Below, one piece after another: positions 24,972 to 57,363 of a stretch of 64,000 nucleotides of DNA. Source of the DNA: Candidatus Wallbacteria bacterium (GTDB taxonomy: Bacteria > Muiribacteriota > JAQTZZ01). Location: positions 1 through 64,000 of the forward strand of contig JAQTZZ010000009.1 in the NCBI GenBank assembly GCA_028687545.1. Direction: 5' to 3'. Position 1 is the stretch's first letter. Each line of letters opens with the position of its first letter. Made by a program: the position numbers and the translations under genes. The notes beneath the pieces were generated by a model. It was not told the DNA's origin. It did not search any database and saw only the letters and a program-made list of their open reading frames with translations.

Positions 24972-25325
24972 TCAGGAGTTGCCGAGCGCCACGCTTTTTT
25001 TGCTGAAAATCTTGTTGATGACCTGATATTTGTCCAGAATTTTCCTCAGGTCAGGCGTTTTCTCCAGAGTCTCCACTCCCAGCAACAGCGACTGCATCTC
25101 ATCCTTTGAATCAGGAAAGATCTGATCCAGGTTGATCAGGCAGTAATTCCATTCGCTTTTTTCCTTGAGCGAAATCTCAAGTTTCCCGGGCAGCCTCTGG
25201 CTGTAGAAAACGTAGAAATTCGAGTAAAAATACCCGGCCGCAATAGCCACTGCAAACAGGAAGAAAATGGTTTTCCAGCTTCCTGAAGAGTCGTGTGTCT
25301 TAGGTTTTACCCTTGATGATGCCAT
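24972..25325 (-). CDS. Small single-pass membrane protein after the Ig-repeat genes
   Basis: This 117-residue protein has a basic N-terminus, one membrane segment (about residues 19-40, TIFFLFAVAIAAGYFYSNFYVF) and a helical C-terminal domain (LLGVETLEKTPDLRKILDKY). The start is ATG at 25325, preceded by GAGGAT. It overlaps the end of the 761-residue Ig-repeat gene by 26 bases and is last in that operon. It is not recognised as a known family; it may be an accessory factor for the Ig-repeat proteins. Confidence 0.7.
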   Translation of the reverse strand: MASSRVKPKTHDSSGSWKTIFFLFAVAIAAGYFYSNFYVFYSQRLPGKLEISLKEKSEWNYCLINLDQIFPDSKDEMQSLLLGVETLEKTPDLRKILDKYQVINKIFSKKSVALGNS

Positions 25326-27585: not shown

Positions 27586-30112
27586 CAAATTCCACCTTGT
27601 ATTCGTGTTCAAGCTTTCTGCCCAGTTTGTCCTGGATTCCAGGATTAATCACAAGTGTAAAATGCTTTCCTGACTCCAGTTTATTATTCGGATAAAAATA
27701 GGCTTTCCTTACAGACGGCTGATACTCGATCCGGCCTGACACTGATTTTCCCTGGTCATTCAATAGTTTCACTGTGAAAACATTCAGCGAAACCGGATTG
27801 ATGTCATTGGAAAAATCAATGTAGATGGACTCATCAGGTTTCACCTTTCCGCCTGTGAGGGGATAAATGTTGAAAATCGTCAGCTTGCTGTCCCGCTCAG
27901 CAATTTCAAAATTACAGTCATTCTGAATCACAGCCTGATTTCCTGCTTCATCGCAGACTGGAAAATTGCATTTCAGTAAATACTTCCCGCAGGGGAGATC
28001 GGATTGCAGCTTGTAGATCAAACGATTGGACTGATTAGAGTACTCCAGTCTGCCGGGAATATAATCTCCGGCTTCGTTTTTCAGGTTGAAATTGAAAGGC
28101 GTGATTTGTTCAGTGCGTACCCGCTCTGAAAATGTAAACGAGATCACCGGCTTCGCCTGGCGGATCACTGAGCCATCGGCTGGACTTATAGCGAGGAGGG
28201 CCGGCGCAGTCTTGTCCGGAGGGTCTCCGACCAGGAATCTCGTCTTGACCGGTTCGGCCAGCTCATTTCCCGCCTTATCCCGCACAGCTGTGGTAAGGGC
28301 GAAAACATACCATTCCCCGGAGGTCAACTCTCGGACAGGCTTGAAGTAAATTTCATTCTTTTCGCTGCTGTATGAAATATTCCCCGGCAGATTGAATTTT
28401 CCGTCATTTAGAATCACGGTAAATGAATTCAATGTTTTCTGATCCAGCGGCTCATTGAATGAAGCGCTGAGAACCGGCTTGCTCCCAACCCTGATCTGTC
28501 CGTTTGGGGGGTAAATGTTCAGAATGGACGGAGGGGTTACATCAGGCGGAACCTGCGTCATGAAGGCGTAGCGATAGATACTGGCGAGTTGATTGCCTAC
28601 CCTGTCCCGAACTCCGCTCATGATCACCACCCAGTATTCCTGGCTGTATTCAAGTGGTTCGTCAGGAGTAAACTTTACATCCCAATCGGTTTCGTCATAC
28701 AGGATCTTGGCTGAAACCGGTTCTTCCTTCAAAAGCAGCAGAAAGTTGAAGCCATTGACTGTTTCGGGGTTGAGCGGCTTGTTGAAGCGGAAATGAAGGG
28801 AGCTGTCGACAGGAACGCCTACCGCCCTGGGTGTGGGGTATGATCCCAGCAGTCTCGGCACAGAATAAGCATCGGCTGGCACTACTTTGTTCCTGGACTT
28901 CTCGGCCTTTTCTTCTTCGATTCTGTCAATTGCCTGAAATTCCTGATTGGCATTTACTTCATGAGTTTCTCTGATCACAGGTGCACTCACGAGCTTCAAA
29001 GCAGGAGCTGTCGTAAATGAGAAAGAAAAATCCTGATTCAGGTTGTTCTGACTCTCGCTTTTCAGATTCCGTTTGACCTTGATCAGAATTTCGGAATTCA
29101 GAGGCAGTGTGTTCTCAGCCTGGATGATCAGGCACTTTTTATCTTCTGTCAGAAAATTCTTGGCCCAGATTGGCTTTTCCCCGCTCTTTATCTGCACTGA
29201 GAGCCTGTTGACGGTTTCCGGATTCAACGCTTCGTTGAAAAATATGCTGATCTTGCTGGCTGGATCTATCTCTTTGTCGCCATCGATTGGATATGTTCTG
29301 GTAACTGTAAGCGGACTCTCCACTCCCCGTTCAACAGTCCTGAAGACTGTGACCAGCCCTTTTTCCAGCCCTTCTTTATCCGAACTGGTGATCAGGTTGG
29401 AAATATTGATCATGTAGCTGGTGCTGGGAATAAGCGGCTTCTGGGGAAAAACACTTACCACTCTGTTGCGGTCTGACAGTTCCAGCCGGCTGTCAACCAC
29501 TTCTCCGCTTCCTCTGAGAATCACGGTATACTTATTGACGCTTTCGGAGGCCACAGGCTTATTGAAGCGGATGCTGGCCACCTGGGTGACGCTGATCTCG
29601 TCGCTGCCGTCCCCTGGAGTCACTTCCAGGACTGAAAATGCTTCATAAGTGGATCCTGCAACTGTCTCCGCCGTTTCAACCTGGATTTCTGCGGTAACTT
29701 TTGCTGCGAGGTCTGAGATCATTTTCCCGTAATCCAGGTCCCGTCCGATTGCAAAATACCAGGAATAATCATTTCCCAGCTTTTTACCCATGCAGTCCCG
29801 GATCTCCCCGGAAATTGTTACCCTGTAATTCTGCCCTGGAGACAGTTTGAAATCCGGAATAAACCTGATCTTACGCTCAGCCTTGACATATTCGACCTTG
29901 CCGCGCAGGTCAGCTGACCCGTCGTTCACAGTTACAGTAAACAGGTTCACATCTCCACCCCGAAGATCACGGTCGAGCACAGCATAAATTTCCGCTGCCT
30001 CAATAATGATCGCGCGACTGTCGGGAAACACCTTCAGAATACCGCTCGCATTCTCTGCACAGGCGGCTGCAGAGACCATCAGCATCAAGAAAAACAATTT
30101 CATTTGTTTCAT
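27575..30112 (-). CDS. Secreted protein with seven SbsA-type Ig-like domains
   Basis: The 845-residue protein begins with a signal peptide (MKQMKLFFLMLMVSAAACA, possibly a lipoprotein-like Cys near residue 18). It then has seven Ig-like domains of roughly 100 residues, each with a YP-x-x-G opening, an F-x-x-P/E-LD-x-x-x-V-N core and a D-x-x-GN close. A lysine/glutamate-rich linker near residues 385-415 interrupts the series between the third and fourth domains. It is the middle gene of three homologous genes, with the start one base after the previous stop. It is probably an adhesin, stalk or surface-layer component. Confidence 0.85.
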   Translation of the reverse strand: MKQMKLFFLMLMVSAAACAENASGILKVFPDSRAIIIEAAEIYAVLDRDLRGGDVNLFTVTVNDGSADLRGKVEYVKAERKIRFIPDFKLSPGQNYRVTISGEIRDCMGKKLGNDYSWYFAIGRDLDYGKMISDLAAKVTAEIQVETAETVAGSTYEAFSVLEVTPGDGSDEISVTQVASIRFNKPVASESVNKYTVILRGSGEVVDSRLELSDRNRVVSVFPQKPLIPSTSYMINISNLITSSDKEGLEKGLVTVFRTVERGVESPLTVTRTYPIDGDKEIDPASKISIFFNEALNPETVNRLSVQIKSGEKPIWAKNFLTEDKKCLIIQAENTLPLNSEILIKVKRNLKSESQNNLNQDFSFSFTTAPALKLVSAPVIRETHEVNANQEFQAIDRIEEEKAEKSRNKVVPADAYSVPRLLGSYPTPRAVGVPVDSSLHFRFNKPLNPETVNGFNFLLLLKEEPVSAKILYDETDWDVKFTPDEPLEYSQEYWVVIMSGVRDRVGNQLASIYRYAFMTQVPPDVTPPSILNIYPPNGQIRVGSKPVLSASFNEPLDQKTLNSFTVILNDGKFNLPGNISYSSEKNEIYFKPVRELTSGEWYVFALTTAVRDKAGNELAEPVKTRFLVGDPPDKTAPALLAISPADGSVIRQAKPVISFTFSERVRTEQITPFNFNLKNEAGDYIPGRLEYSNQSNRLIYKLQSDLPCGKYLLKCNFPVCDEAGNQAVIQNDCNFEIAERDSKLTIFNIYPLTGGKVKPDESIYIDFSNDINPVSLNVFTVKLLNDQGKSVSGRIEYQPSVRKAYFYPNNKLESGKHFTLVINPGIQDKLGRKLEHEYKVEFDVE

Positions 30113-30113
30113 C

Positions 30114-33100
30114 CTATTTATAATCCGCCACTGTGAAATTCCAGGTCACGGTATCATCCAGAGGCACTCCGTTGACACCCCGGATGCCCTTGGTAAGGAC
30201 TGCCTGATACTGCCGGCCCTTCGCAAGCCCCGAGTCAGGGTAAAACTCGGCTCTGTTCAGGGCTTTATTGTATATTATTTTTCCGGTGATGTTGCGCGAA
30301 TTGTCCCGTACGATGAATGTGTATTTATTCAGTGTGGTCGGATCAATTCCAGTGGAAAAAGCCGCACAGATCACAGCTTTCTCAGAGATGTTCTGAGCAT
30401 CGTTTTCAGGGCTCAGAATCACAGTCTTGGGTGCAGCGATATCAGTCGGATGTCCAACATAGAATAAGAAGGTCTTGGGGTTGGCAAGGCCATTCCCTGC
30501 GAGATCAGTGATCCCATCCGTGACTGTGACTGAATATTTCTCGCCGGTTTTGAGTTCGTTTTTCAGATTCGCCACCACGGCCCTCTCCATTGAAGAATAA
30601 CTGAGCTGGACAGGAATCAGCTGATCCCTGTTTTTCACAATCACCGTATATCCGTTGATCGAGTCCTCTTTCAACTGTTCGGAGAAGAAAAGTTTGATTT
30701 CAGGATGTACCTTGTTGTCAATGGAATTAGGGAGAGGAGTGTAATTGACGAGCGTGGGAGGCTCGGTGTCGGGAGGCATGATAGTTGTGAATTCTACAAT
30801 GTATGTTCTGACAAGAGGATTTCCAGCCAGATCCCGGATGGCATCCGTCAGCAGGAAATGGTAAGTCCGGTTGTACTCCAGTTTGTTCACAGGCGCATAC
30901 TCCAGTAGATGTCTTTTCTGGTTGTATTTCGTGTTCCCCGGGATATAATCGCTCCCATCGGTCAGGGTGACCGAATTCGAAGTCACACTGCATGTATCAA
31001 TGTCTTCAGAGAAGAAGATCGAGATTACCGGCGTGATCGAAACCTGCAGGTCTCCAGGATCAGGACTGGATTTCACTACTTCCGGTTTAACGGTATCAGG
31101 TTTCGGAGCAGTTCTGAACTTTAACACCTGGTTTTTAGCGATCGAATTTCCAGCCTGATCGCGGATACCGGTTGTAGCATAAACGTAATAGTCACATGCA
31201 AAATCAAGAGTCTTGACAGGCGTCAGCGTCACTTTGGCAAATTCGGATTCATAAGCAAGGCTTGTTTCCAGCTCCGCTTCCCCTTTTTTCAGAATCAGGT
31301 TGGTCTTATTGACACTCTTGTCTTCCAGTCTTTCGCTGAAAACAATGGCAATCTTGCAGTCAACAGAAGCTTCAGTCGTTCCATCAGCCGGGTCGCAGTA
31401 CTTCACCACTGGAGGAATTCTGTCAGGAGCGTGGACTGTCCTGAAATTAATGATCCTGGTGGATGCCAGACAATTACCAGCCAGATCTTCAATGGTGCGG
31501 GACAGGGCAAGTCGGTACTGCCGGTAATACTCGAGTTTTTCCTTACTGCTGCAGGTTAAAAAATTCCCCAGCTTGTTGTATTTGAGATTCAGAGGAAACT
31601 TCTGCCCGGTCTCATCGTCGATCAGAGTTACTGTAAAGTCATTCAAAGTCTTCTCATTAACGGCTTCAGAAAACTCAACCTTGAAACCGGCCGACAGATC
31701 TACATCCTGTGCTTTGTCCTCAGGGGTGCAGCGGACGATTTCCGGTCTGACTGCATCCGGAGCTTTTTCCGAGGTGAATCTAAGTTTGTATTGTGTGCCA
31801 AGTTTATTCCCGATCCTGTCGGAGATATCCGGACTCAGATTAAGGGTGTATTTGTGCTCAGGGGGGAGGGGTTTGTCAGGCACGAATTCCAGGGAATTTT
31901 CCTCCCGCAAATAGCGGACCGCTCCGTTTACCTTGGCTGCACTGTTCTGGTCTTCAAGGACAACGGTATATTCATTCACTGTGTGATCATCAAGAGCTTC
32001 GGAGAATACCACTTTGCATGCTGCATCGCATTTCACGCCTTCTTCCTGGTCGCCTGGAGCGGTCTTGAGAATTTCAGGCGGATCAAGATCAGGTTGAGCC
32101 TCTATTTTAAAAGGAATCAGCTTTTCAGCTGACATCCGGTTACCTGCAAGATCACTGACTGTGGAACCGATAGTGACCTGATAGTTCTGGTTGTAATCAA
32201 GGTTCTCGGCGGGCGTAAGAAGCAGCTTGCTGATCAGCGGATTATAATCCAACTTGACCGGGATTTGATGATTCCCGGCATTGATTCTGACGCTTTCCTT
32301 GGTCAGTGTTTCGGCTTTCACTGGTTCGGAAAAAACGACGGTGATCAGAGAATTCACCTTCACATTCACAGCACCGGCCAGTGGCGAACTGTACAGGACT
32401 CTGGGTGGTGTGTCGTCCGGTGCGCCTTCGGTCTGGAAATTCAATGTGACTGGTTTCGGCAGATGATTCTGGCAGCAGTCGGAAACTGCTTCTACCGCAG
32501 TCAGCGAATAATGTGTTCCATAATTCAGGAGCGTGCGCGGTTTGAATGAAACCTCATTTTTTTGCCTGTCATAATCCACGTCGCCCAGAATCGTTTCCCC
32601 ATCCCGATAGAGCAGGATGCTGTAAATGTTCACTGATTCATTTAGCAGGGGTTCGTCGAAACGCATTGTCATCACAGAGGAAACCTGCACATCTTTTGCC
32701 CCTTCCTTGGGAACGCATTCCACCAGTCTGGGCGGGTTTTTGTCTGGTCTGTCCATGGTCCGTACTTTGAAGACAATGTTTTCCAGCGGATGATTTCCGG
32801 TCTCATCGCTGATGTCGTCGCGGAACACGATCAGTTCATAGTCTTTTTCAAACAAAAGGTCGTTCAAAGGCTTGTAGTAAAGCACCAGCGGAACCTTCAA
32901 GGATACTTCTCCAGTGATTTTTCTTCCTCCTGCATCGCGCAAAACGATCGTCGAATTCGTGATCAGTCCTGTCTTCAGTGGTTCTGAGAACTCAAGCTGA
33001 AAAAAGACGTCCACCGGACTCTTTTCGCCGAAATTTTTCTTTGAAACAAAGGGCGGAGCAGTATCCGGAGGTGAGGCGGTGCGGAAGGAAAAACTGTGAT

Positions 33101-34448
33101 CGATCATGCGGTTGCCTTCCAGATCCGATACATTTCGGCTGACCTTGATCAGAATTTCGGAAGTGTAGGGAAGGGCTTCCGCTGGAATGATCTGGACCAG
33201 TTTATCCTTCAAAATAAAATTTAACTTGGTTTTGATGATGTTCGAAGATTTCTTTTCAATCATGGTAAAATTAAGGCCGCAGACTGAATCTGCTTTCAGG
33301 GTTTCGCTGAACCAGATTTTCACCTGGCAATCCACAGGAATATTAGCGCTTCCCTCCTGAGGGTCTGTTCTAACTATGTCCGGTGGTGTAGTGTCGCGCT
33401 CAGGAATTACTTCAAATGATATTGAGTAATCGCTGATGGCGTTTCCGGACAGGTCACGGATCTTCTTTAAGCACAAAAGATACTTTCCTGGTTCAAGTGC
33501 CTTTTCCGGTTTAAGTTCAAGAGAACGCAGTCTGTTGTCATAGACAGCCTGCACAGGGACAATGTCTTTCCCGCTCTTGAGCTCTATGTTTTTTGGGCTA
33601 AGCGCATCCGGATCCAGTTCTTCAGAAAACCTGAGGGCGATCCGTGCATACTGGGAAACGCCTTCGGCTTTGTCTGCAGGAGACACATAAGTCACAACCG
33701 GGGGAACAGTGTCGATGATTCGAAATTTGAACTTGTTGGGATTGGAAAGCAGATTATCCTGTAAATCCCTGATTCCTTCACGGATTTCCAGCTGATATTC
33801 TCTCCCTTCTTCCAGTTTCTCCGGCTTGAAATAGAGTTTCTTCACATTTGGCAGATACCGGAATGCACCAGAAACGGGTTTCAGGTCTTCTGTGGCAAAA
33901 AGCAGCACAGTGAATTTATTCAGGCTTGAGGGCAGCATTTCTTTATTGAAAGTAAATACGATTTCTCCGTTCAGGGGAAAATCACGTCCATTTGGAAGCG
34001 GTGAGGTCATGATGATTTTGGGCTTGATCCCCTTATCCAGTTCACGGCTGTTTTCCTGCTTTACTTCAGACAGGGTCTTGAAACAGATCCGGTAATTTTC
34101 TTTGAGTGGATAACCCAGCTGATTTTTCAGAAGATATCCGGCGACGACCAGCGTGTATGAAGTGTTCCAGTCCAGCACTTCATCAGGCTTGATCAGAGCG
34201 CATTTGCGCTCATCATCGTATATCACTGATGTTTTCAAATCAGTTCCATATTGATCGCTGAGAGTGAAAGCGGCAGACACCATTGTCACATCGTTCATGT
34301 GCTGATTAAAATAAATTTTCAGAAGCCCGTCGATCGCGACATCTTTAGCCCCATCTTCGGGCATGGTGTTGAAAATCTCAGGATACACCGCAGCAGCAGA
34401 TGCGGCGCTCTGCATGACAAGCAATAAAATCAGCAAAAATAGACGCAT
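30114..34448 (-). CDS. Secreted protein with thirteen SbsA-type Ig-like domains
   Basis: The 1444-residue protein begins with a signal peptide (MRLFLLILLLVMQSAASAAA). Thirteen Ig-like domains can be counted from the linker motif D-x-x-PP followed by P-x-x-G/D-A-x-x-V; eleven linkers carry that motif and two N-terminal domains carry variants. Each ends with I-x-DLAGN or similar, the Big_5 hallmark. No anchoring or catalytic domain is seen at the C-terminus, which ends in the last Ig fold. The start has AGAAAGG upstream. It is the first gene of the Ig-repeat operon and ends next to the second. It is probably a long extracellular filament or adhesin. Confidence 0.87.
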   Translation of the reverse strand: MRLFLLILLLVMQSAASAAAVYPEIFNTMPEDGAKDVAIDGLLKIYFNQHMNDVTMVSAAFTLSDQYGTDLKTSVIYDDERKCALIKPDEVLDWNTSYTLVVAGYLLKNQLGYPLKENYRICFKTLSEVKQENSRELDKGIKPKIIMTSPLPNGRDFPLNGEIVFTFNKEMLPSSLNKFTVLLFATEDLKPVSGAFRYLPNVKKLYFKPEKLEEGREYQLEIREGIRDLQDNLLSNPNKFKFRIIDTVPPVVTYVSPADKAEGVSQYARIALRFSEELDPDALSPKNIELKSGKDIVPVQAVYDNRLRSLELKPEKALEPGKYLLCLKKIRDLSGNAISDYSISFEVIPERDTTPPDIVRTDPQEGSANIPVDCQVKIWFSETLKADSVCGLNFTMIEKKSSNIIKTKLNFILKDKLVQIIPAEALPYTSEILIKVSRNVSDLEGNRMIDHSFSFRTASPPDTAPPFVSKKNFGEKSPVDVFFQLEFSEPLKTGLITNSTIVLRDAGGRKITGEVSLKVPLVLYYKPLNDLLFEKDYELIVFRDDISDETGNHPLENIVFKVRTMDRPDKNPPRLVECVPKEGAKDVQVSSVMTMRFDEPLLNESVNIYSILLYRDGETILGDVDYDRQKNEVSFKPRTLLNYGTHYSLTAVEAVSDCCQNHLPKPVTLNFQTEGAPDDTPPRVLYSSPLAGAVNVKVNSLITVVFSEPVKAETLTKESVRINAGNHQIPVKLDYNPLISKLLLTPAENLDYNQNYQVTIGSTVSDLAGNRMSAEKLIPFKIEAQPDLDPPEILKTAPGDQEEGVKCDAACKVVFSEALDDHTVNEYTVVLEDQNSAAKVNGAVRYLREENSLEFVPDKPLPPEHKYTLNLSPDISDRIGNKLGTQYKLRFTSEKAPDAVRPEIVRCTPEDKAQDVDLSAGFKVEFSEAVNEKTLNDFTVTLIDDETGQKFPLNLKYNKLGNFLTCSSKEKLEYYRQYRLALSRTIEDLAGNCLASTRIINFRTVHAPDRIPPVVKYCDPADGTTEASVDCKIAIVFSERLEDKSVNKTNLILKKGEAELETSLAYESEFAKVTLTPVKTLDFACDYYVYATTGIRDQAGNSIAKNQVLKFRTAPKPDTVKPEVVKSSPDPGDLQVSITPVISIFFSEDIDTCSVTSNSVTLTDGSDYIPGNTKYNQKRHLLEYAPVNKLEYNRTYHFLLTDAIRDLAGNPLVRTYIVEFTTIMPPDTEPPTLVNYTPLPNSIDNKVHPEIKLFFSEQLKEDSINGYTVIVKNRDQLIPVQLSYSSMERAVVANLKNELKTGEKYSVTVTDGITDLAGNGLANPKTFLFYVGHPTDIAAPKTVILSPENDAQNISEKAVICAAFSTGIDPTTLNKYTFIVRDNSRNITGKIIYNKALNRAEFYPDSGLAKGRQYQAVLTKGIRGVNGVPLDDTVTWNFTVADYK

Positions 34449-44897: not shown

Positions 44898-46285
44898 AAA
44901 TACTGTTTCAGAAACCACTGTCTGGACCATCAAAGCATAGCTCATCCGAGAGCAGTGCTGTTTACCGCTTTACTTATCAGGAAGCCCTGCGTGAACTGGA
45001 CAACATCATCAATACAGGCGTCAAATATGAACTGGCCAAGATCAAGCGACTTTCAGAAATTCTGGGAAATCCGCAAAAAAAATACCGCATCGTCCATATC
45101 ACAGGTACAAAGGGCAAAGGTTCCACTGGAGCGATCCTGAGTGGAGTTCTGACCGGAAAGATCAAGACCGGTTTTTTTTCATCCCCGCATCTGGTGAGTT
45201 TCTGTGAACGGATCAGGATCAATAATCAGCAGATCAGCGAAAACAAATTTGCAGAGAATTTCAGTGAAATCTGGCCCGCTATACTGCAGGTTGAAACTGA
45301 ACTCGGCGCTAAACCAAGTTTTTTTGAGATCTTCACGGCCCTTGCCTATTACATCTTCAGAAAGGAGCATGTCGAACTGGCGATTGTCGAAGTAGGACTC
45401 GGCGGTCGTCTGGACGCGACAAACGTTGCTGACGGTGATATTTGCGTGCTTACCAGGATCCATTACGACCATATCCGGATCCTGGGCAACACTCTAGCCC
45501 AGATTGCAGCCGAAAAAGCAGGTATCATCAAAGAAAACAGCCTGGTCGTTAATGTCAACCGGGGAGCTGAAACCCTTCCGGTAATCCGGAAGAAAGTGAC
45601 AGAAAGCCCTGGCGCCAGTCTTTTTTATGCTCCCTCACATTACAGAATTGCCGTGCAAAAATCGGATCTCTCCGGCCTCCATCTTGATGTTTTCAAAGGG
45701 AATAAACTTTTGTACCGCAATCTTTTTTTTCCCTTACCCGGAGCACATCAGCTGGAAAATCTCAAAGCCGCGCTGCTCACCCTTGAACTGCTCTCGAAAA
45801 TCGGATTTCCTGTAAATGTATCCACTCGCGACTTTTCCCTGATCAGCTGGCCCGGCCGGCTTCAGGTATACAGTCATAATCCACTGGTGATTTTAGACGG
45901 AGCGCATAACCAGATCAGCGGAAAGAAACTGTCTGAATTTCTGGAACAGGAATTTTGCGGCAGGAAAATTCTTTTTCTGCTTGGGATTCTCGAAGACAAG
46001 GAATACGGTAAATTCATCCGCATCCTAGCTCCCCGTATGAAGAAAGTGGTTCTGACAGAAGTTGAAAGTCCGCGCACTCTCAAGTTGAAGAGTCTGTTCG
46101 CTGAGCTGACTAAATATCTGCCTGAAAACAGGATCTGTGTGTCCAGAAAAAATGAAAATGCCTTGAAAAAAGCCCTGAAAATTGCTCGAAGGGAAAACCT
46201 GCCGCTGATTATCACGGGCTCACTTTATCTTCTTGGCAGTTGTCTCAAGGCTTTGGACAAGATTAGAGTGAATGAAAAAAACTAG
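44894..46285 (+). CDS. folC: Folylpolyglutamate synthase / dihydrofolate synthase
   Basis: FolC adds glutamate to folates (and to dihydropteroate in bifunctional forms). The 463-residue protein has the P-loop ITGTKGKGSTGAIL, the FFSSPHLVSFCERIRIN segment, VEVGLGGRLDATN and the IHYDHIRILG metal/ATP site. The C-terminal ligase domain carries VILDGAHN. About 30 N-terminal residues precede the conserved start (YRFTYQEALREL), slightly longer than usual. It shares an ATGA overlap with the transporter gene and converges on the STAS gene with a 4-base overlap. Confidence 0.92.
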   Translation: MKILFQKPLSGPSKHSSSESSAVYRFTYQEALRELDNIINTGVKYELAKIKRLSEILGNPQKKYRIVHITGTKGKGSTGAILSGVLTGKIKTGFFSSPHLVSFCERIRINNQQISENKFAENFSEIWPAILQVETELGAKPSFFEIFTALAYYIFRKEHVELAIVEVGLGGRLDATNVADGDICVLTRIHYDHIRILGNTLAQIAAEKAGIIKENSLVVNVNRGAETLPVIRKKVTESPGASLFYAPSHYRIAVQKSDLSGLHLDVFKGNKLLYRNLFFPLPGAHQLENLKAALLTLELLSKIGFPVNVSTRDFSLISWPGRLQVYSHNPLVILDGAHNQISGKKLSEFLEQEFCGRKILFLLGILEDKEYGKFIRILAPRMKKVVLTEVESPRTLKLKSLFAELTKYLPENRICVSRKNENALKKALKIARRENLPLIITGSLYLLGSCLKALDKIRVNEKN

Positions 46286-46749
46286 CCCCCGAAGCTGTGA
46301 ACCGCCTTTTCCTCGTCATCATATATTGTGATCAGATCCTGCAGGTGCACCATTTTCAAGACTTTCTGAGCCCTCCCGTTCTGGGGAGCGATCAGCTTGA
46401 TTTCCTCATCCGTAAGAGTCGTGAACAGGAGTCTGGTATTCACTCCTTTGGAAAGTTCAGTAATCTTGATTTCAGCCTTGGTCTGATACTGCTTGACCAT
46501 TTTGAGAATGTTAAGCAGGGTGGAAACTCCCATACTGTCGATCATCCCTACTTCAGACAGATTAAGCACAATATTCCCAAGTCCATTCAGGATCAGATCT
46601 GTGATTTTGTCCTCAAGTTCCCGGCAGTTTGCTGCGGTAAAATTGCCTTTCACACTTACTATAGTTACAACTATTTCACGATTAAGCGATCCTTCATCAG
46701 AATATTGTTTTCTAACTCCTGCATTCTTTCTTTTAATTGTAATCTCCAT
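46282..46749 (-). CDS. STAS-domain anti-sigma factor antagonist
   Basis: This 155-residue protein of the SpoIIAA/RsbV family has its phospho-accepting serine within VGMIDSMGVSTLLN, the conserved STAS signature. In partner switching it would be phosphorylated by an RsbW-like kinase and dephosphorylated by a SpoIIE-type phosphatase. Both activities appear to be present on the neighbouring 676-residue protein. The first 30 residues (MEITIKRKNAGVRKQ) form a short extension before the domain. The start shares one base with the stop of that gene, suggesting translational coupling. Confidence 0.87.
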   Translation of the reverse strand: MEITIKRKNAGVRKQYSDEGSLNREIVVTIVSVKGNFTAANCRELEDKITDLILNGLGNIVLNLSEVGMIDSMGVSTLLNILKMVKQYQTKAEIKITELSKGVNTRLLFTTLTDEEIKLIAPQNGRAQKVLKMVHLQDLITIYDDEEKAVHSFGG

Positions 46750-48779
46750 CAGTCCCCTCCGTAATTTTTATAAAAATAAAAACTGGTGTCTTCCTCGTCA
46801 CACTTGAAAAACATCTCGTTGGTAAGCTTGGACACCAGCGGGAGTCCTCTTTTTCCAATCGTCTGGCTGTCCATCAGCGTCCGAAGATTTAAAGCCGGGA
46901 TAGGTCTCATCTGATCTTTTTTGTTTTTAACCACTGCTTTAAGTTTGTTGTTCAGGATCTGAAGTTTGAGTTCCACCGGAAAACCTTTCTTTCCATATTT
47001 CAATCCATTGGTCAGGGCTTCATAAAGGCAGATCACAACTTCATCCAGAAATTCACCGTTGACTCCGTTCGATGTAAGGAACGTTTCTGCGGAACGCACG
47101 AAATCATCCAAAGTCTTCAAATCACAAGGCATTTCCGCAACATAGGTCAGTTCCGGTGCCAGGGTTAGATACAGAAATGTAAGGTCATCGGACAGATCGG
47201 CTTCTCCCTGAAATTCAGCCAGATTGCGGATCAGCTTCTTTTTGAGCAGATTCGCGGGTGTCTTTTCCAGTATGAACTTCTGCAGTTTTTCTGTTTCATA
47301 AAATTCTCCGCTTGAATTTTTCATTTCAGGAATTCCGTCCGTGTAGATGAATACAAGGTCCTGCTCTTCCAGCACCTGTTTTCCTTCGGTGTAACTGCTA
47401 TCATTATTTACACCTAGTGGCATTCCCTGTGTAGGTAGTTCCAGCAGCTCTTTTCCCCTGACAATGTACCCGCTTTCGTGCCCGGCAGAAGAATAAGTCA
47501 GTTCCCTCTTCTTGTGGTCATAAATACCGATGAACAATGTAATGAACATTTTCTGGAACAGCCCTTTGATTTCCTGATACAGGATCCTGTTTGCAGTACA
47601 CAGAACCTGAGAAGGGCTCCTGGCTTCTGATAGTACAGCACGGAAAATTCCTTTTCCCATTGTGGACAAAAGGGCGGAGGGAATCCCTTTGCCCGAGACA
47701 TCTCCTACCAGAAACGCAAGCCTTCCACCGTCCAATTCCATCAAATCATAAAAATCGCCTCCGGTTTCCCTGGCAAATTCGCAATGAGCATCAAAATACA
47801 TCCCGTCAACCTCAGGTAATTCCGCAGGAAGACAGGAATATTGGATCTCCTGTGCAAGATGCAGCTGTTCGCTGATCACTTTGTTTTCCGCAAGCTCGTT
47901 GTAAAGCCTTTCTTTATCCAGGATGATCGCGAGATGTTCGGCTATGGCCTGCAGAAAGTAAAGATCTTTCACCTTGAACGGCGGCTGCTCAGATTCGGTT
48001 TCCAGATAAATCAGGCCAAGTCTCCGGTTCCCTGAAACAAGCGGTACGCAGATCACTGAATGGATTTGATACTGGATGACGCTTTTGGCCATCTCAAGCC
48101 CGGTATCTGCAGCAGCGTTGGCAGTGAAAAAGCCTTCTCCACTTTGCAGCACTTTATTTACAATGGTTTTACTGAGATGATATTCTCCTTCGTCAAAGTA
48201 GTCTTCCACTTCCTTGATCGAAACGGGTTTGTATTTTCCCTCCTTATTCAGAAGCATGATAAACCCGCGCTTCACTCCGAAAAAAGAGCTTATCTTGTCC
48301 ATGATATGGTTGAATATCTGCTGGGATTGTTCCTCGCTGTTGATCTGCCTGGCAATGTCGTAAAGAGTAGAGATCTCGCTGATTACTTTTTCCAGGGCTT
48401 TCTTGAACTCCGCTGGAAAATCTGGGAACTGCTCCAGATAACTCTCAATGATCATCCTGGTTGTTTTCAGTTCCTTTGCAAACGAAAGTGGAATTTCTGA
48501 AACAACGAACTCTAATTCACCTATGCTGACAGGACTCAGATCTCTAATCCGGGTTTTCTCTAAAACCTCTTTCTTTTCTAAAAACGTACCCAGCGTCGAC
48601 CCTGTGTCCTCTATAAAAAATTGCCCTGATTCAAACACAATCCTGCAGTGATGTCTTGAAATTCCTCTGAGCTTCAAGACCAGGTCACAATCAGGATTCT
48701 TCCCCAGTACCACGATGTCTTTTTGGGGCCGTGCGATTTCCCTGACAGGCTTTCCATTGATCGATTCGTAGAAGTACAT
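46749..48779 (-). CDS. FHA-GAF-SpoIIE phosphatase with C-terminal RsbW-type ATPase
   Basis: The 676-residue cytosolic signalling protein has four modules. An FHA domain (1-95) carries VLGKNPDCDLVL, GISRHHC and the DTGSTLGT loop. A GAF domain spans about 150-300. A SpoIIE-type PP2C phosphatase (about 315-535) carries GGDFYDLMEL and VGDVSGKGIPSALL metal-binding Asp motifs. An HATPase_c/RsbW-like kinase domain (550-676) has the N box EALTNGLKYG. Combining phosphatase and anti-sigma-kinase-like domain in one chain would give a self-contained switch acting on the STAS protein encoded next. The start overlaps the upstream stop by one base. Confidence 0.88.
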   Translation of the reverse strand: MYFYESINGKPVREIARPQKDIVVLGKNPDCDLVLKLRGISRHHCRIVFESGQFFIEDTGSTLGTFLEKKEVLEKTRIRDLSPVSIGELEFVVSEIPLSFAKELKTTRMIIESYLEQFPDFPAEFKKALEKVISEISTLYDIARQINSEEQSQQIFNHIMDKISSFFGVKRGFIMLLNKEGKYKPVSIKEVEDYFDEGEYHLSKTIVNKVLQSGEGFFTANAAADTGLEMAKSVIQYQIHSVICVPLVSGNRRLGLIYLETESEQPPFKVKDLYFLQAIAEHLAIILDKERLYNELAENKVISEQLHLAQEIQYSCLPAELPEVDGMYFDAHCEFARETGGDFYDLMELDGGRLAFLVGDVSGKGIPSALLSTMGKGIFRAVLSEARSPSQVLCTANRILYQEIKGLFQKMFITLFIGIYDHKKRELTYSSAGHESGYIVRGKELLELPTQGMPLGVNNDSSYTEGKQVLEEQDLVFIYTDGIPEMKNSSGEFYETEKLQKFILEKTPANLLKKKLIRNLAEFQGEADLSDDLTFLYLTLAPELTYVAEMPCDLKTLDDFVRSAETFLTSNGVNGEFLDEVVICLYEALTNGLKYGKKGFPVELKLQILNNKLKAVVKNKKDQMRPIPALNLRTLMDSQTIGKRGLPLVSKLTNEMFFKCDEEDTSFYFYKNYGGD

Positions 48780-50983
48780 TATTCCACCCCGTAGATTGGC
48801 AGGTAATCAGAAAAATCTGGTTCGGCCATCCTGTTCCGGTCTAAAACTGTTTTAAAGATCTCTCTGAGCTTTTCAGAGAGTTCTTCGTCCCCGGCTTTGT
48901 GAGTCTTTCCGGTCAATCCCAAAAGCGCCTGCATATGATAAGGGTCACTTTTCAATGCTGTAAAATATCTTGATCTGGCACGCTCATTCTGCCCCAGCTG
49001 CTGATAAAGTCTCCCCAGGTTGCAGCACACATCAGGGTTTGAACTTGTTCTGAAAGCCAGATCCAGTATCTGCTCGGCTTCACTCAACTGTCCGGCTTTG
49101 GCATGACAGATTCCAAGATTGTTCATGGCTACCAGCTTCCAGTCGGAAATTTCATGTTCCATAATCCGCTTAAAACATGAGATCGCAGGTTCAAGTTTCC
49201 CCATTTTATAATATAGAATACCCAGGAGGTTATTCAATTCAGGGTTTGCTGGATCCTTGCGGCATAATTTATCTGTTTCCAGAATCAGATCTTCAATCTC
49301 CTCTGTGCCAGCTTCCACTCTGACTGAAAGCATTTTAATCCCGACCTCCGGGTCATCCGGTTTTATTTTCAAAGCTCTGTCCAGGCTGCAAAGACATGCC
49401 GCTAAATTACCAGCCCTGTGGAAAATAGCTCCCTGTTGAAGATATCCGCCAAATTTTACTGAAGGCTCGGTGGAAACTCCAAGCAGCCTGTCCACTTCCT
49501 GACAGGCTTGTTCATCCGCACGGAACCAGGAAGAAATCCTGGCCATTAGCAGATGCAATTCAGGAGATTCTCCACGTGTAATTCCCTGTCTGCACATGTA
49601 ATATGCACCCCCGTAATCTCCAGACGACAGGTATGCCTCTGCCAGTTTGGCGTAAACCCTCCCTCTTGAATAACCTTGGGACAGAAGTTGTTGCAGAATC
49701 TTCCGGGCTTTCTCGGGACTCCCGATCTTCAGATAGCAGTCAGCAAGCATGAAATAGGCTTCTGTGGGTCTGCTGTCGAAATCGATCAGATCTCTGAAAA
49801 CCCCAATCGCTCCCTGATAATCTCCCTTCTTGATCAGAAAAACGGCGTATCTGGATGGGTTGTTTTTCCGCTCCAAATCACTCTTGGCTGAGATTTCCAG
49901 GTCTAAGTCATTCAGAGCCATCTGACAAAGTGGTTCTGCGGGAACAGTCAATGTTTCCCGGTAACTTGCTGCAGCTTCGAGCCCTTTTTCCATCAGCAAT
50001 TTATTTGCTTCCAGAATCTCCCGTAAACTTCCTTTGGGGAAATTTTTCTGATAATCAATGATCAGGCTGAGCATCTTCTCCAGATTCCCGTTTTTAAAAT
50101 AAACCCTGCACAGCCCGTGAAAGGCTTCCTCCCGCGGAAAGTCTTTGATTGATTCCAGGTAATATGCCTCCGCGTTATCGAGGCTGCCCAAGCGATAGTA
50201 ACAGAAAGCCAGTTTTAATTTAAGTTCTCTGTCAACAGGAGTCAGTCTTAACAGTTGATCCAAGTATTCGATTGCCAGAGAATAGTTTTCATGGCCTAGG
50301 GCTTCAGCGATAGTTCTGTGCAGCTGATTCACAGCTACCTTGTTGATGTCCTCGCCTTTTTTCCCTCTGTCCGGTATTTGCCGATACAGCCATCCGAAGG
50401 CAAAGTACAAAAAAATTAATCCCAGAATGGTTGCTGTATATTTGCTCACTTTTGATCCGAAAACAATATATTTAGCAGGGGCACTGCTCAGTTTTCTGCG
50501 GGATTCCAGAATCAGTCTGCGGGACTCCCTGGATGTTTCCGAACTCGCTTCAGTCAGTAGTTCGTAAGTCAGAGAATCGTCAATTTGCTCACTGACATGA
50601 AGCCCACTTTTTAATTCGGACAAGTTCGGAGAAACCAGCATTTTTTTCAATTCTTCACGAATCGGCCCTGTTCCGTATTTCCACAGGATCTTAATAATGT
50701 TTCCTTTGATTCTAGGATCGGATTCGCGTTCCAGATATCCCAGTAAAAACGGTGCAAGCTCTGGATCATTAAAATATCCTAAACCTTCCACCGCGTTGGC
50801 TCTGACCCTTTTATCACCATGGTTCAGATAGGTTTTTAAAATAATTGCTGCTCTGTTTACCCCTGTATACGCGATCTTTTTCAACAGAGTCGCGATTTCA
50901 ACCGGATTTTCTGTCGCCATCAACTGCCCTTCAAGTTCTGGCAGGGAATCAGTCTCAACTGATCTAAACTGTTTCATACTCAA
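48779..50983 (-). CDS. HEAT-repeat and TPR membrane protein
   Basis: The 734-residue protein begins with HEAT-like repeats (about 1-150; KRVRANAVEGLGYFNDPELAPFLLGYL). One membrane segment follows (about 180-205, YTATILGLIFLYFAFGWLYRQ). The large C-terminal region (220-700) holds about 12 TPR units (PEARK-type pairs such as PSVKFGGYLQQGAIFHRAG). The HEAT part would face the cytosol, next to the FHA phosphatase; the TPR part probably faces the periplasm, although topology is inferred. It may be a scaffold transmitting a signal to the switch proteins. It overlaps the transglutaminase-like gene by 4 bases. Confidence 0.8.
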   Translation of the reverse strand: MSMKQFRSVETDSLPELEGQLMATENPVEIATLLKKIAYTGVNRAAIILKTYLNHGDKRVRANAVEGLGYFNDPELAPFLLGYLERESDPRIKGNIIKILWKYGTGPIREELKKMLVSPNLSELKSGLHVSEQIDDSLTYELLTEASSETSRESRRLILESRRKLSSAPAKYIVFGSKVSKYTATILGLIFLYFAFGWLYRQIPDRGKKGEDINKVAVNQLHRTIAEALGHENYSLAIEYLDQLLRLTPVDRELKLKLAFCYYRLGSLDNAEAYYLESIKDFPREEAFHGLCRVYFKNGNLEKMLSLIIDYQKNFPKGSLREILEANKLLMEKGLEAAASYRETLTVPAEPLCQMALNDLDLEISAKSDLERKNNPSRYAVFLIKKGDYQGAIGVFRDLIDFDSRPTEAYFMLADCYLKIGSPEKARKILQQLLSQGYSRGRVYAKLAEAYLSSGDYGGAYYMCRQGITRGESPELHLLMARISSWFRADEQACQEVDRLLGVSTEPSVKFGGYLQQGAIFHRAGNLAACLCSLDRALKIKPDDPEVGIKMLSVRVEAGTEEIEDLILETDKLCRKDPANPELNNLLGILYYKMGKLEPAISCFKRIMEHEISDWKLVAMNNLGICHAKAGQLSEAEQILDLAFRTSSNPDVCCNLGRLYQQLGQNERARSRYFTALKSDPYHMQALLGLTGKTHKAGDEELSEKLREIFKTVLDRNRMAEPDFSDYLPIYGVE

Positions 50984-52758
50984 CTCTTGATTTCCTCAAA
51001 ACTTTTCAGGATATCCATGAAATATCGTTCCCCGTCAACTGAATCTTCTGTATCCAATCTGATTTTGTATAGGTTATCCTTTCCAAGCCGCAGCGCTTCA
51101 AACACTTTTTTTCTTTCCGTAGGCCTGCCGATCAGATAATTCATCACTATGAAATTCGGAAGATGTGCTGGAATAGCAGAACTGCCAAACTGAAAATCTC
51201 GCGATTCTTTTTCCAATACTTTCACGTGGTGCGCAAGTGCTTCCTGCAGATTGGAGCAGTATCCGACAGGTTCGGTGCTGACCCGGATTTCTACAGGACT
51301 TTTTTCTGTGCCGAGTATTTGAAGCCTTATTTCATTGAACTCTCCGTATTGATCTGTGAATTCAGAATTGCTGAGTGAAAAAGTGAAATTCAAACGTTCT
51401 GAGATAAAACTGTCCCCGATCCGCTGATGGATCGGTTCGTTATCCAAAGGGTGGATCAGTTTGCCGGACCTTGAGTACTGTGTGATCCTGGCTGACTGCT
51501 TGATCCAGTTCAATGTTGAGAGATCTGAGATTAATCCGGACTTGCCTGTCAGATCTCCTTCCCAGATCGGAAAATACAGTGCTTCCTGTAATCCGGAATA
51601 GTTCAGATCCAGCACATCTTTTCCCAGATGAAGTCTACCCCAGAAATCCTGGCGGAAAAACCCCTGAGTATATATAAATCCAACGCAATCCTGGGCTTCC
51701 ATGCCAACTGCCCTGAGAAGAGCGTTGAACAGCAGTGCAACTTCCAGTCGAGTGCCAGTGCCGGATTTGATTACATCAGCCGGGAATCTGAATTGCACCC
51801 CTGTTTCCAGTTCTACTTTCAGTCTTCTGCAAAACTCGGAAATCCGGGCAATTATTAATTCGGGGTTTTCTTCTCCCTTCACGATCTGCCCGGCCAGTAC
51901 AGAAATTTCGTCCGTACTAATGGTGTGACTGATCTTTTTGGGCAGTCTGCCGGTATGATTCAAAGCACTAAGATAAGTCCGCTGGTTTTTAATTTCTGTA
52001 AGAGTTCCATTTACAAGCAGCGGCGCAATGGCCTCGATAAGTCCAACTTCAATTTCACAATCTGTGATCGCTGAGCAATCCAGTGAACAGACTGGTTGAA
52101 CCCATAACGGTGCAATCGGTTCGCTGCTCTCATCCATCCTTCGGATTATCAGCTGAAGATCAGAGTCAAGCAGAGTCAACAGTTCCCGGCTGGAGTTAAA
52201 AAAAAGATTCTGCTCTCTTCCACAATAATTAACCGCAAATTCTTCCAAAGCTCCCTGCTTAAATCTGTCTCCAAGTTTTCTGGAAGTCATCCTGGAAACT
52301 CTGCAGGTCTCTTCGTCAAAGACATCAAACTCGCTGACTTCATAATCAGTAATTTTATTTTCACGGTAAAGTTCGGGCAGCGTAAATTTCAGATAAAAAT
52401 TTTCAGGAACTCCTGATCTTCTGAATTCTGTTCCATCCAAGAAAAAAACAGCCGCTCCAGCCTGGAATTTAATCTCAAGATTTTCAATCAATTCTCCATT
52501 GATTTTTGATTTTTTTAGAATTGCGACAGGATTCAGGTTGGAATCTGTGTACTCATAGTATGTATCTTCGTGAATTGATTCCTCCTCTCCCTTTTTTTCG
52601 CTGAATGTCAGAATAAAAAGACGGCAAGTCCTGCTCTCATATCTCTCTTCGCGGAAATCCCTGGTCAGATCCAGAATTTTGATTCCGTTTCTGTAATAGG
52701 AAAATTTTTCTGCATGAAGGGTAAAGGCGAAAAACAAAAACAATAGAAAAGTTCTCAA
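50980..52758 (-). CDS. Transglutaminase-like secreted protein, catalytic Cys apparently lost
   Basis: The 592-residue protein has a signal peptide (MRTFLLFLFFAFTLHA), a beta-rich N-terminal half and a transglutaminase-core-like segment around residues 330-395. At the catalytic site, GTGTRLEVALLFNALLRAVG matches the family pattern GxCxDxAxLxxALLRALG, but Thr stands where Cys is expected. The following His-Trp motif reads QDFWGRLHLGKDVLDL, with the Asp kept and the His missing. This suggests a non-catalytic binding domain. It is the first gene of the partner-switch operon, and its periplasmic location makes it a possible sensor. Confidence 0.7.
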   Translation of the reverse strand: MRTFLLFLFFAFTLHAEKFSYYRNGIKILDLTRDFREERYESRTCRLFILTFSEKKGEEESIHEDTYYEYTDSNLNPVAILKKSKINGELIENLEIKFQAGAAVFFLDGTEFRRSGVPENFYLKFTLPELYRENKITDYEVSEFDVFDEETCRVSRMTSRKLGDRFKQGALEEFAVNYCGREQNLFFNSSRELLTLLDSDLQLIIRRMDESSEPIAPLWVQPVCSLDCSAITDCEIEVGLIEAIAPLLVNGTLTEIKNQRTYLSALNHTGRLPKKISHTISTDEISVLAGQIVKGEENPELIIARISEFCRRLKVELETGVQFRFPADVIKSGTGTRLEVALLFNALLRAVGMEAQDCVGFIYTQGFFRQDFWGRLHLGKDVLDLNYSGLQEALYFPIWEGDLTGKSGLISDLSTLNWIKQSARITQYSRSGKLIHPLDNEPIHQRIGDSFISERLNFTFSLSNSEFTDQYGEFNEIRLQILGTEKSPVEIRVSTEPVGYCSNLQEALAHHVKVLEKESRDFQFGSSAIPAHLPNFIVMNYLIGRPTERKKVFEALRLGKDNLYKIRLDTEDSVDGERYFMDILKSFEEIKS

Positions 52759-52840: not shown

Positions 52841-53320
52841 ATGATCTATCAGAATCCCTCGCTGACAGTTGACGGTTTGATTTACGATTCCAGGCGGCTG
52901 TTGCTGATTAAAAGGAAAAACGAACCGTTTGCAGACTGCTGGGCCCTTCCTGGAGGATTCGTTGATTACGGTGAAACAGTGGAGCATGCCCTGCGCAGGG
53001 AAATGCTCGAAGAAACGTCTCTCAGGGTCAGCAATATATATCTGTTTGGGGTTTTTTCAGACCCGGATCGTGACCCCCGCAGCCATACTGCCAGTATTAT
53101 CTATCTGATCCCGACCGATTCCCTTGCTCAAGCTAAGCCTGCAGATGACGCGAAGGAAACCTCTCTTTTTCCTTTCAAAGAACTGCCAGATCTGAAACTG
53201 GCCTTTGATCACAATAAAATAATCAGTGAGTTTGTAAAATTTTTATCTGATCCAGCGCTTTATCTAGCAGATAGACTACCATGTCCAGACGGTACCCGGC
53301 TTCGGAACGGATGTCTGTAA
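52841..53320 (+). CDS. NUDIX hydrolase
   Basis: The 159-residue protein has the NUDIX box GFVDYGETVEHALRREMLEETSL (GX5EX7REUXEEXGU, with Ser in place of the final hydrophobic/Gly region) and the upstream LPGG motif. It cleaves a nucleoside diphosphate linked to another group; ADP-ribose pyrophosphatase is a likely type but not proven. The C-terminal 30 residues (RLPCPDGTRLRNGCL) overlap the convergent dehydrogenase subunit gene by 98 bases. The gene appears to be transcribed without a leader. Confidence 0.85.
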   Translation: MIYQNPSLTVDGLIYDSRRLLLIKRKNEPFADCWALPGGFVDYGETVEHALRREMLEETSLRVSNIYLFGVFSDPDRDPRSHTASIIYLIPTDSLAQAKPADDAKETSLFPFKELPDLKLAFDHNKIISEFVKFLSDPALYLADRLPCPDGTRLRNGCL

Positions 53321-54621: not shown

Positions 54622-57363
54622 ATGGCTAAACTGCTTTTTTTCTTTTTCTGCTTTTGCTATAGTCTCTCGGCTTATCCGATCAACCACCCTGACGAGAAAA
54701 CCCAGTGCATTGAAAGCGAACATTTTAAGATTTTCTTTGGATCCGGAAAAATGAGGTTGGGAAATTATATCTGTAATCTGGCTGAAAACGCCTATCTGCG
54801 GGAAAAGGGTGTTTTTGGCATCGACCTCCCTGGAAAAACCCCAGTGGTGATTCAGAGCAATGATGAATTTTCCTATGGTGATGCAGACCCTTTCACCGAT
54901 AAAATAGTGCTCAACGAATACTTCGGCGTCAATGAAGATTCCACGCTGCTCCCGCCTTATCAGGAACTGGTCGCTCACGAACTGGCACATATTTTTACCT
55001 TCAAGTACCTGTCAGGAAACATTAATCTTTACAAGAGAATGCTGTCTCTCGGCTTGATGCCTCTGTGGCTGATCGAAGGCCTGGCCCAGTATGTCGGGGA
55101 ATCATGGAATTCATGTCAGGATTCTTATATGCGTTCCGTCTCCCTGGACAACAAATTCATGTCTCTGAGTGATCTGAATTCATTCTATTATTATGATCTT
55201 GAAAAAAGACATTGCGGCTATCTGGAAAGTTTTGCACTCGTCAAATTCATCTTTGAGCAGCTGATTCCGGATCAAGGCATTGCAGCTTTTCTCAAAGCCT
55301 ATTCCAGAAATCCCTTCAGGCTGGAACAGGTCTTTAAATCTCTGACTGGAAAGGATGTATCGGCTGTGTATCAGGAATATCTCAGATTTTATCAGAAGAA
55401 GTACGAAAAGGACGCGGTTTACTCTCCCTCTCAATCCCGTTCGATCAAATCTTTCTCGTTCCCGGCTAAATACCAGCGTTACCCGCGTTTCTCTCCTGAT
55501 GGAAAAACCCTGGCTCTGATCGCTGATCAGAAAAGGGAACTTCATCAACAGAACGACCTTTATTTCTGTGATCTTCTAACAAGTAAATACCGCAAAGTGC
55601 TTACAAACATAGACCCTTTTTATGACTTCTCTCCTGACGGGGAAACAATCGTTTACTCACATCTTTATTTTTCCGAGAAAGCCAGGCGCTATCTTTATGA
55701 TGTCTTTCAGCTTGATATCAGTTCAGGAAAAAAAAGACGCCTCACCACTGATTTTTCCGCACGTTTTCCCTGCTATCTCTCTAATTGCTCAGTGGCCTTC
55801 ATTCGATACAATCCGTTCGGAAACGGGGTTTACCAGCTGAATCTGAACAGCGGGGAGTGTAAAATGCTGTTTCCTGAGAATACCGGCTATTACTTCTATG
55901 CGCTGCGGGCCAGGGAGGGAAAACTCCTGGCCAGCGCCTTTGATGGTCATTCCCGCCAGGTGGTGCTTCTGGATCAGAAAGGAGGACTCTCCCCGCTGAC
56001 TAATTTTCCAGACGACAACCGGATTCCGGTTGCTACTGAGAACGGTCTTTTCTTCCTCCATCGCACAGCAGGTGAGAAAAGCGTAATTTACGAGCTGGCT
56101 GAATCGCCTGTAACCGATAAGGAAACCACTGGTGTCTATTTTTCCCAAGGCGTGCTGTATCAAGTCGGAGATTTTTCAAGGGATATCCTGGATTTCGATC
56201 TGTCTGGCAACCTGCTCGCCGTGGCAACATACGAAAAATCATCTTATACCATCCGGGTCTGTGACACTTCCAATCTTTTTAAAAAGCAGATCGTCGCTCC
56301 TGTCTGCGGTACCACGGCAGTAGATCTTCGTGGCCTTGATTATCCAGTAAGAGGTTATGACAAAAAACTGAATCTGTCTGCTTTCACACCATGGGGTGAA
56401 TATGATGATGAAGGCAGAGTAGGTCTGCTGACTTCAATGTCCGATTTCATCGGGTACAACAATTTCCTTGGTAAATTCTTCTACAATCTTGAAACAAAAC
56501 GCTTTGGAGAAAAAATCGATTTCATTTCCCGGGATTATGCCTTCACCACCAATTTCTCTTATGAAAACAATGTCTACCAAAGCCATTACGGGGACAGCGA
56601 ATATATTAAACGCAATGAAACACTTGATCTGCAGTTTGATTATCCCTTCAATCCCAAAGAAGTTGTGTTCTGGGGACTGGAAAACAAGAAGATCAGCTCC
56701 GTTGAACTGGATCCTCCTATTCTGCCGCCTCCGTTTCAAGGCAACATCAACCTGTTAAAGATCGGGTACAAGTTTTTTAAGCTCAGATCTTCCCCTGACT
56801 GGGACATCAATCCCCGGGATGGACGTTCTCTGCGTTTTGATTTCCGCAAAGCCGATCGATTGCTGGGTTCTGAAGTTGTTTACAACGAATATCGCGCTCA
56901 GTGGGAAGAATACCTGACCCTGCATCACAATCCCCAGTCTCTGTTCCTGCGCTCGGCATACGGGATCAAGGACAAAATCAGCACCCTCAATTCTCCCATT
57001 CTGTATGGAATCGGCGGGCTTGATACAGTGCGTGGTTTCGAGACAGATTACAAATTTGGAACCAGATATCTACTGCTCACAGGTGAATTCCGTTTTCCGC
57101 TTTACGCTCGAATAGTCCGTCCTAAAATTGGATATTTGTATCTGAATAAACTGTTCGGGGTTCTTTTCTATGATTCCGGCAACTGCTGGTATAGCGGCAG
57201 GCCTGACTGGTCTGACTTCCTCTCAAGCTGCGGAGCGGAATTCCGGCTGAAAAGTCTGGTCGTCGGAAAACTTCCGGTCATCACCAGGCTCGGATATGCT
57301 GTTCAGGAACGCAACGGATCAGGAAACAGCACATTCCTCAAGTTCGAGCTGCCGCTGTTTTGA
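54622..57363 (+). CDS. Secreted zinc peptidase with WD40-like (PD40) repeats and an outer-membrane barrel
   Basis: The 913-residue protein begins with a signal peptide (MAKLLFFFFCFCYSLSAYP). The N-terminal domain has the gluzincin motif VAHELAHIF (residues 115-123) and a downstream Glu in LIEGLAQYVGE, as in M1/M61-like peptidases. A central region of PD40/TolB-like beta-propeller repeats follows (RFSPDGKTLALIADQ, DFSPDGETIVYS). The C-terminal 300 residues resemble an Omp85-type surface antigen barrel (GGLDTVRGFETDYKFGTRYLLLTGEFRFPL) and end in a terminal Phe. It is probably an outer-membrane protein with a periplasmic peptidase. No clear ribosome-binding site precedes the ATG. Confidence 0.82.
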   Translation: MAKLLFFFFCFCYSLSAYPINHPDEKTQCIESEHFKIFFGSGKMRLGNYICNLAENAYLREKGVFGIDLPGKTPVVIQSNDEFSYGDADPFTDKIVLNEYFGVNEDSTLLPPYQELVAHELAHIFTFKYLSGNINLYKRMLSLGLMPLWLIEGLAQYVGESWNSCQDSYMRSVSLDNKFMSLSDLNSFYYYDLEKRHCGYLESFALVKFIFEQLIPDQGIAAFLKAYSRNPFRLEQVFKSLTGKDVSAVYQEYLRFYQKKYEKDAVYSPSQSRSIKSFSFPAKYQRYPRFSPDGKTLALIADQKRELHQQNDLYFCDLLTSKYRKVLTNIDPFYDFSPDGETIVYSHLYFSEKARRYLYDVFQLDISSGKKRRLTTDFSARFPCYLSNCSVAFIRYNPFGNGVYQLNLNSGECKMLFPENTGYYFYALRAREGKLLASAFDGHSRQVVLLDQKGGLSPLTNFPDDNRIPVATENGLFFLHRTAGEKSVIYELAESPVTDKETTGVYFSQGVLYQVGDFSRDILDFDLSGNLLAVATYEKSSYTIRVCDTSNLFKKQIVAPVCGTTAVDLRGLDYPVRGYDKKLNLSAFTPWGEYDDEGRVGLLTSMSDFIGYNNFLGKFFYNLETKRFGEKIDFISRDYAFTTNFSYENNVYQSHYGDSEYIKRNETLDLQFDYPFNPKEVVFWGLENKKISSVELDPPILPPPFQGNINLLKIGYKFFKLRSSPDWDINPRDGRSLRFDFRKADRLLGSEVVYNEYRAQWEEYLTLHHNPQSLFLRSAYGIKDKISTLNSPILYGIGGLDTVRGFETDYKFGTRYLLLTGEFRFPLYARIVRPKIGYLYLNKLFGVLFYDSGNCWYSGRPDWSDFLSSCGAEFRLKSLVVGKLPVITRLGYAVQERNGSGNSTFLKFELPLF

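Follow-up and report, generated by a model that had tools for sequence, protein, structure and literature searches.

A fused partner-switch operon of Candidatus Wallbacteria with a likely pseudokinase and a putative relay across the membrane

Partner switches in which phosphatase and kinase domains share a single chain have been described in several bacteria. Rv1364c of Mycobacterium tuberculosis has a PAS domain as its input and carries its STAS domain fused in the same chain. Its RsbU and RsbW domains also lie in that chain (PDB 3ke6), and PMC7693655 cites a work whose title concerns loss of kinase activity in Rv1364c. In the HsbR-HsbA system of Pseudomonas aeruginosa and the CrsR-CrsA system of Shewanella, a PP2C phosphatase domain and an RsbW-like domain are combined in one chain that acts on a STAS antagonist; HsbR, a fused kinase-phosphatase, acts on FlgM/FliA and RpoS, which are encoded elsewhere (PMC6482189). 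In Vibrio fischeri, the STAS protein SypA is controlled by SypE, which unites a serine kinase domain and a PP2C domain in one protein (PMC3610818). Here we describe an operon with the HsbR/SypE-type arrangement, PP2C and RsbW-like domains in one chain beside a STAS gene, in a Candidatus Wallbacteria bacterium, a member of a candidate phylum in which few signalling systems have been characterised. It lies in a window of 64,000 nucleotides, the whole stretch of DNA that was analysed (assembly GCA_028687545.1, contig JAQTZZ010000009.1, positions 1 to 64,000).

Four open reading frames on the minus strand occupy positions 46282-52758. In the order of transcription, they encode a transglutaminase-like protein (50980..52758), a HEAT-TPR protein (48779..50983), a phosphatase-kinase protein of 676 residues (46749..48779) and a STAS protein (46282..46749), with overlaps of 4, 1 and 1 bases. 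The 4-base overlap between the first two genes depends on a TTG start, which is also found in the sister genome described below. The upstream boundary is set by a divergent Nudix gene at 52841 (+), and the downstream one by convergent folC (+), which ends at 46285 and shares 4 bases with the end of the STAS gene. Pfam matches identify a STAS domain (1.3e-13) in the last product, FHA, GAF, SpoIIE and HATPase_c_2 domains, each above its cut-off, in the 676-residue protein, and HEAT_2 together with many TPR matches in the product of the second gene. A first, sequence-only reading of this DNA had proposed a single operon of four genes overlapping by 1-4 bases, with this domain content and with no sigma factor gene; the coordinates, the Pfam matches and the occurrence of the same four-gene unit in a sister genus all agree with it, and no sigma factor gene was found in the operon or among its neighbours, in the source genome or in the sister. 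Promoter and terminator scans of the operon gave chance-level results only, and no RNA family was found within it.

Two other groups of genes in the window deserve mention. The region 25300-34448 (-) encodes three large proteins, 770, 845 and 1444 residues long, which consist mostly of repeated Big_5 bacterial Ig-like domains, and similar-looking giants (568+ and 1451 residues) are encoded a few kilobases from the operon on the sister contig (L045, 2-6057). A 913-residue protein with peptidase-MA-like, PD40 and Omp85-type matches is encoded at 54622-57363 (+); its protease-like, propeller and barrel parts make an unusual combination.

The identical gene order is found in Candidatus Wallbacteria STB_16 (hereafter the sister), the nearest of the genomes available for comparison, which belongs to the same family and another genus. 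There the operon lies on a contig of 21,836 bases, and the two loci have convergent folC, ECF transporter, PSP1 and L25 genes as common neighbours. Identity between the two genomes is 61% for the STAS protein, 58% for the phosphatase protein, 31% for the HEAT-TPR protein and 24% for the transglutaminase-like protein. By domain, it amounts to 50% for FHA, 63% for GAF, 57% for SpoIIE, 54% for HATPase, 51% for HEAT and 61% for STAS, and in the predicted periplasmic parts to 27% for TPR and 13-32% for the transglutaminase-like segments. Among the 40 genomes of the phylum that were searched, only the source genome and the sister encode orthologous phosphatase, HEAT-TPR and STAS proteins. When 114 relatives were searched with the transglutaminase-like protein, the sister alone gave a match over most of its length, and matches elsewhere were confined to the core. 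When named genomes were searched, the sister was the sole match to the phosphatase protein, and the transglutaminase-like protein had no match. A literature search for a system joining transglutaminase, STAS, SpoIIE and TPR found no such operon described. Since the whole unit is kept in a sister genus, chance is untenable as an explanation of the operon, and we conclude that it is genuine but narrow in distribution.

The input end of the phosphatase protein comprises an FHA domain (residues 23-87) and a GAF domain (152-288). The phosphothreonine-binding loops of FHA domains have conserved Arg, Ser, His and Asn residues. Ser41 and His44 are kept here, the Arg position is Lys27 in the source genome, and the Asn position is Leu in both orthologues; judged by these positions, the FHA domain is partly degenerate. 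The SpoIIE/PP2C domain that follows (350-539; Pfam 4.8e-44) aligns to solved phosphatases. Its metal-site aspartates D342, D345, D360, D481 and D532 (motifs GGDFYD, GDVSGKG, YTDG and SDD) are invariant between the source genome and the sister, and by its residues the metal-dependent phosphatase site is intact. The same holds, as far as alignment can tell, for the candidate phosphoacceptor site of the STAS protein: Ser72 (DSMG) aligns with Ser58 of SpoIIAA (DSSG in 1th8, DASG in 1tid) and is a serine in the sister. The STAS protein also has a 24-residue insertion before its C-terminal helix, which is common to the sister and absent from the 13 other STAS domains of the source genome, and a Thr where most of those 13 domains carry the Asp of the GxxD motif. 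In SypA, the equivalent Asp residues have been placed at the kinase interface (PMC10120452).

The C-terminal domain of the phosphatase protein (553-662) had been taken for an RsbW-like kinase that acts, together with the phosphatase in the same chain, on the neighbouring STAS protein. It matches HATPase_c_2 with 38.3 bits (cut-off 27.4). Compared by sequence with solved structures, this domain alone gave no match; its AlphaFold model, of modest confidence overall (pLDDT 61) and lowest in the G1-G2 region, has SpoIIAB/RsbW structures as its best matches (1l0o, 1til, 6m36; E ~1e-6), and on the strength of this model the domain has an RsbW/SpoIIAB-type fold. The N-box, EALTN, is kept with Glu587 and Asn591, as is the final glycine of G2. 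The G1 box reads VKNKKD in the source genome and VRNTKD in the sister, with Asn619 in place of the G1 Asp, and the G2 box reads GKRGL where GGxGL is usual, a glycine having been lost in both orthologues. The G1 Asp is retained in 25 of the 27 distinct relatives from the phylum that could be aligned (two duplicated loci were removed by hand), the exceptions being small stand-alone HATPase_c_2-like proteins, L065 (1453-1890) and L091 (G002:C11:21441-21755). This residue has been described as absolutely conserved in HATPase-domain proteins and as contacting ATP (PMC9137472). Of the RsbW proteins of M. smegmatis, RsbW2, whose N, G1 and G2 motifs are conserved, acts as a kinase, and RsbW1 and RsbW3 do not (PMC7693655).

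Based on the two losses, the conservation among relatives, the role ascribed to the G1 Asp and the precedents in M. smegmatis, we consider the C-terminal domain to be most likely a pseudokinase or a docking module for the STAS protein. Weak or atypical use of ATP may still occur, because the domain retains Glu587, Asn591 and the final glycine of G2. The altered G1-G2 stretch is itself conserved between the source genome and the sister (IPALNL, GKRGLPL), which argues for a kept function and against decay. Of the proposal that one chain holds both activities, the intact SpoIIE site and the RsbW/SpoIIAB fold still stand, but the kinase half is weakened: key ATP-binding residues are gone (Asn619, GKRG), a loss of the kind that the sequence-only reading had itself named as counting against it, though the Glu and Asn of the N-box remain. 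A full bifunctional switch, in which an active HATPase kinase and the SpoIIE phosphatase oppose each other on one STAS protein in the manner of HsbR-HsbA and SypE-SypA, would fit the kept N-box residues and the fold, and it has parallels both in the known fused kinase-phosphatases HsbR (PMC6482189) and SypE (PMC3610818) and in phylum relatives of the same architecture, which keep G1. We nevertheless think it unlikely, given that the absolutely conserved, ATP-contacting Asp (PMC9137472) and the G2 glycine are lost in both members and that the STAS partner is without the usual GxxD Asp; the sequence argues against kinase activity of the HsbR/SypE kind.

We also considered whether the HATPase domain is a pseudogene remnant, and rejected this, as its identity to the sister (54%) is in line with that of the remainder of the protein. 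The same contig carries a second partner switch (L054, 11142-14851; G000:C9 ~75.1-78.9 kb), in which a GAF-SpoIIE-HATPase gene with intact G1 and G2 is followed by a STAS gene and then by ABC transporter permease and ATPase genes. A paralogue with G1 retained lies at C9:77142-77546 of the source genome.

The missing sigma factor gene had suggested that the output of the switch may be non-transcriptional; this is weak evidence, since HsbR acts on factors encoded elsewhere. The operon itself contains no such gene, and a resident sigma factor was rejected on that ground. In a search of the source genome with the SigBFG model, no SigB/F-class sigma factor reached the cut-off (best match 131 bits, cut-off 234), and FliA/WhiG and RpoD/RpoS-like factors account better for the matches below it; the genome encodes two FliA/WhiG, two RpoD-like and one divergent RpoD/RpoS-like sigma factor. 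In two other families of the phylum (L068 and L069), a gene for an FHA-GAF-GAF-SpoIIE-HATPase protein with intact G1 is directly followed by one for a STAS domain fused to a metallo-beta-lactamase (MBL)-fold domain (L068, 6907-8196; L069, 6973-8262), and in L069 a Ser/Thr kinase gene comes next. By analogy, these pairs point to enzyme-type outputs in the lineage. The output might instead be a FliA/WhiG- or RpoS-like sigma factor whose gene lies elsewhere; the RsbW-like domain would hold it as an anti-sigma factor without kinase activity, and the unphosphorylated STAS protein would release it. Such an output could draw on the sigma factors of the source genome, and both kinase-less anti-sigma factors (PMC7693655) and control of RpoS by HsbR (PMC6482189) are on record; however, with no SigB/F-class factor above the cut-off, no sigma factor gene within or next to the operon of the source genome or the sister, and MBL-fused STAS domains adjoining the related phosphatases of the phylum, we regard it as rather improbable.

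The first gene of the operon encodes a protein with a signal-peptide-like N-terminus, an N-terminal region and a transglutaminase-like core (~286-400), predicted to be exported or periplasmic. The core scores just under the Pfam cut-off of 23 bits for Transglut_core in the source genome (22.2 bits) and well above it in the sister (38.5 bits). We aligned both proteins with relatives in which the Cys, His and Asp motifs (GDC, HAW, DP) are retained. In the source genome, Cys is replaced by R337 and His by D371, and Asp is kept as D384; in the sister, Cys and Asp are kept and His is replaced by Ala. Loss of the His is thus common to both orthologues and loss of the Cys particular to the source genome, and on this alignment an ordinary Cys-His-Asp triad is excluded in both proteins. 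The sequence-only reading, in which the protein appeared to lack its Cys and His, is supported here. The AlphaFold model of the protein was unusable (pLDDT 31), and a profile search of solved structures gave one insignificant match only.

The HEAT-TPR protein consists of a HEAT part (1-140), a lone hydrophobic segment (~182-200) and a TPR part (216-734). The mean hydropathy of the segment is 1.54, and 2.15 in the sister, and the break in conservation between the HEAT and TPR parts (51% vs 27%) falls around it. Hydropathy and conservation fit a topology in which the HEAT half would be cytosolic and the TPR half periplasmic, adjoining the exported transglutaminase-like protein. The flanking charges do not decide the orientation; we place the HEAT half inside because a 180-residue N-terminal domain is not readily exported without a signal. 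The hydrophobic segment and the domain-wise identity to the sister thus make the suggested role of this protein as a transmembrane link likely. That the two proteins share a transcription unit with the switch and yet do unrelated envelope work would accord with the much faster evolution of the exported parts and with triad-bearing transglutaminase-like relatives elsewhere that have no adjacent STAS or full SpoIIE gene (BLAST), but we find it quite improbable, as gene order and tight overlaps are kept between genera and the HEAT part, with 51% identity to the sister, resembles the switch proteins in this respect.

We propose that the operon is a lineage-specific transmembrane signalling unit derived from a partner switch, in which a membrane sensor relay tunes the SpoIIE phosphatase on the STAS switch and the former kinase domain serves as a docking module; taken as a whole, we give this explanation about an even chance. 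The exported, catalytically dead transglutaminase-like protein would bind a ligand or a feature of the envelope and contact the periplasmic TPR arm, and the cytosolic HEAT part would hand the resulting state to the FHA-GAF-SpoIIE protein. The phosphatase, to judge from the operon and the family, would dephosphorylate Ser72 of the neighbouring STAS protein, which another kinase of the cell would have phosphorylated; the RsbW-like domain would most likely dock or hold the STAS protein and not phosphorylate it. The STAS protein, with its conserved insertion, would then bind a target encoded elsewhere. More tentatively, it is possible, if somewhat doubtful, that the switch consists almost wholly of scaffolds, with a dead transglutaminase sensing the outside, a pseudokinase docking the STAS protein inside and the phosphatase as the only working enzyme, which would give envelope-to-cytosol partner switching with neither a resident kinase nor a resident sigma factor. 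If the proposed relay is correct, a HEAT-TPR protein would carry the input of this partner switch across the membrane, and the kinase of the switch would have turned pseudokinase. It would show the reuse of catalytic domains as sensors and docks.

Several features set this operon apart from the systems it most resembles. HsbR and CrsR have a receiver domain as input and a working kinase, whereas the Wallbacteria protein has FHA-GAF input and has lost its G1 box; as described, HsbR-HsbA and CrsR-CrsA are also without HEAT-TPR and transglutaminase-like genes, both of which are present here. In SypE, the kinase domain is N-terminal, functional and in need of its N-box Asn, the receiver domain is central and the operon is a different one, whereas the HATPase domain of the Wallbacteria protein is C-terminal. 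Rv1364c, unlike the Wallbacteria protein, is not known to have a HEAT-TPR or transglutaminase-like partner. Within the phylum, the L068/L069 pair has the same phosphatase-kinase architecture with a neighbouring STAS domain, but differs in its second GAF domain, its intact G1 and its MBL-fused STAS, and no HEAT-TPR or transglutaminase-like gene was detected with it. Overall, the operon appears to be a variant of the fused partner-switch kind, one in which apparently intact phosphatase and STAS sites go together with a probable pseudokinase and with a relay predicted to span the membrane.
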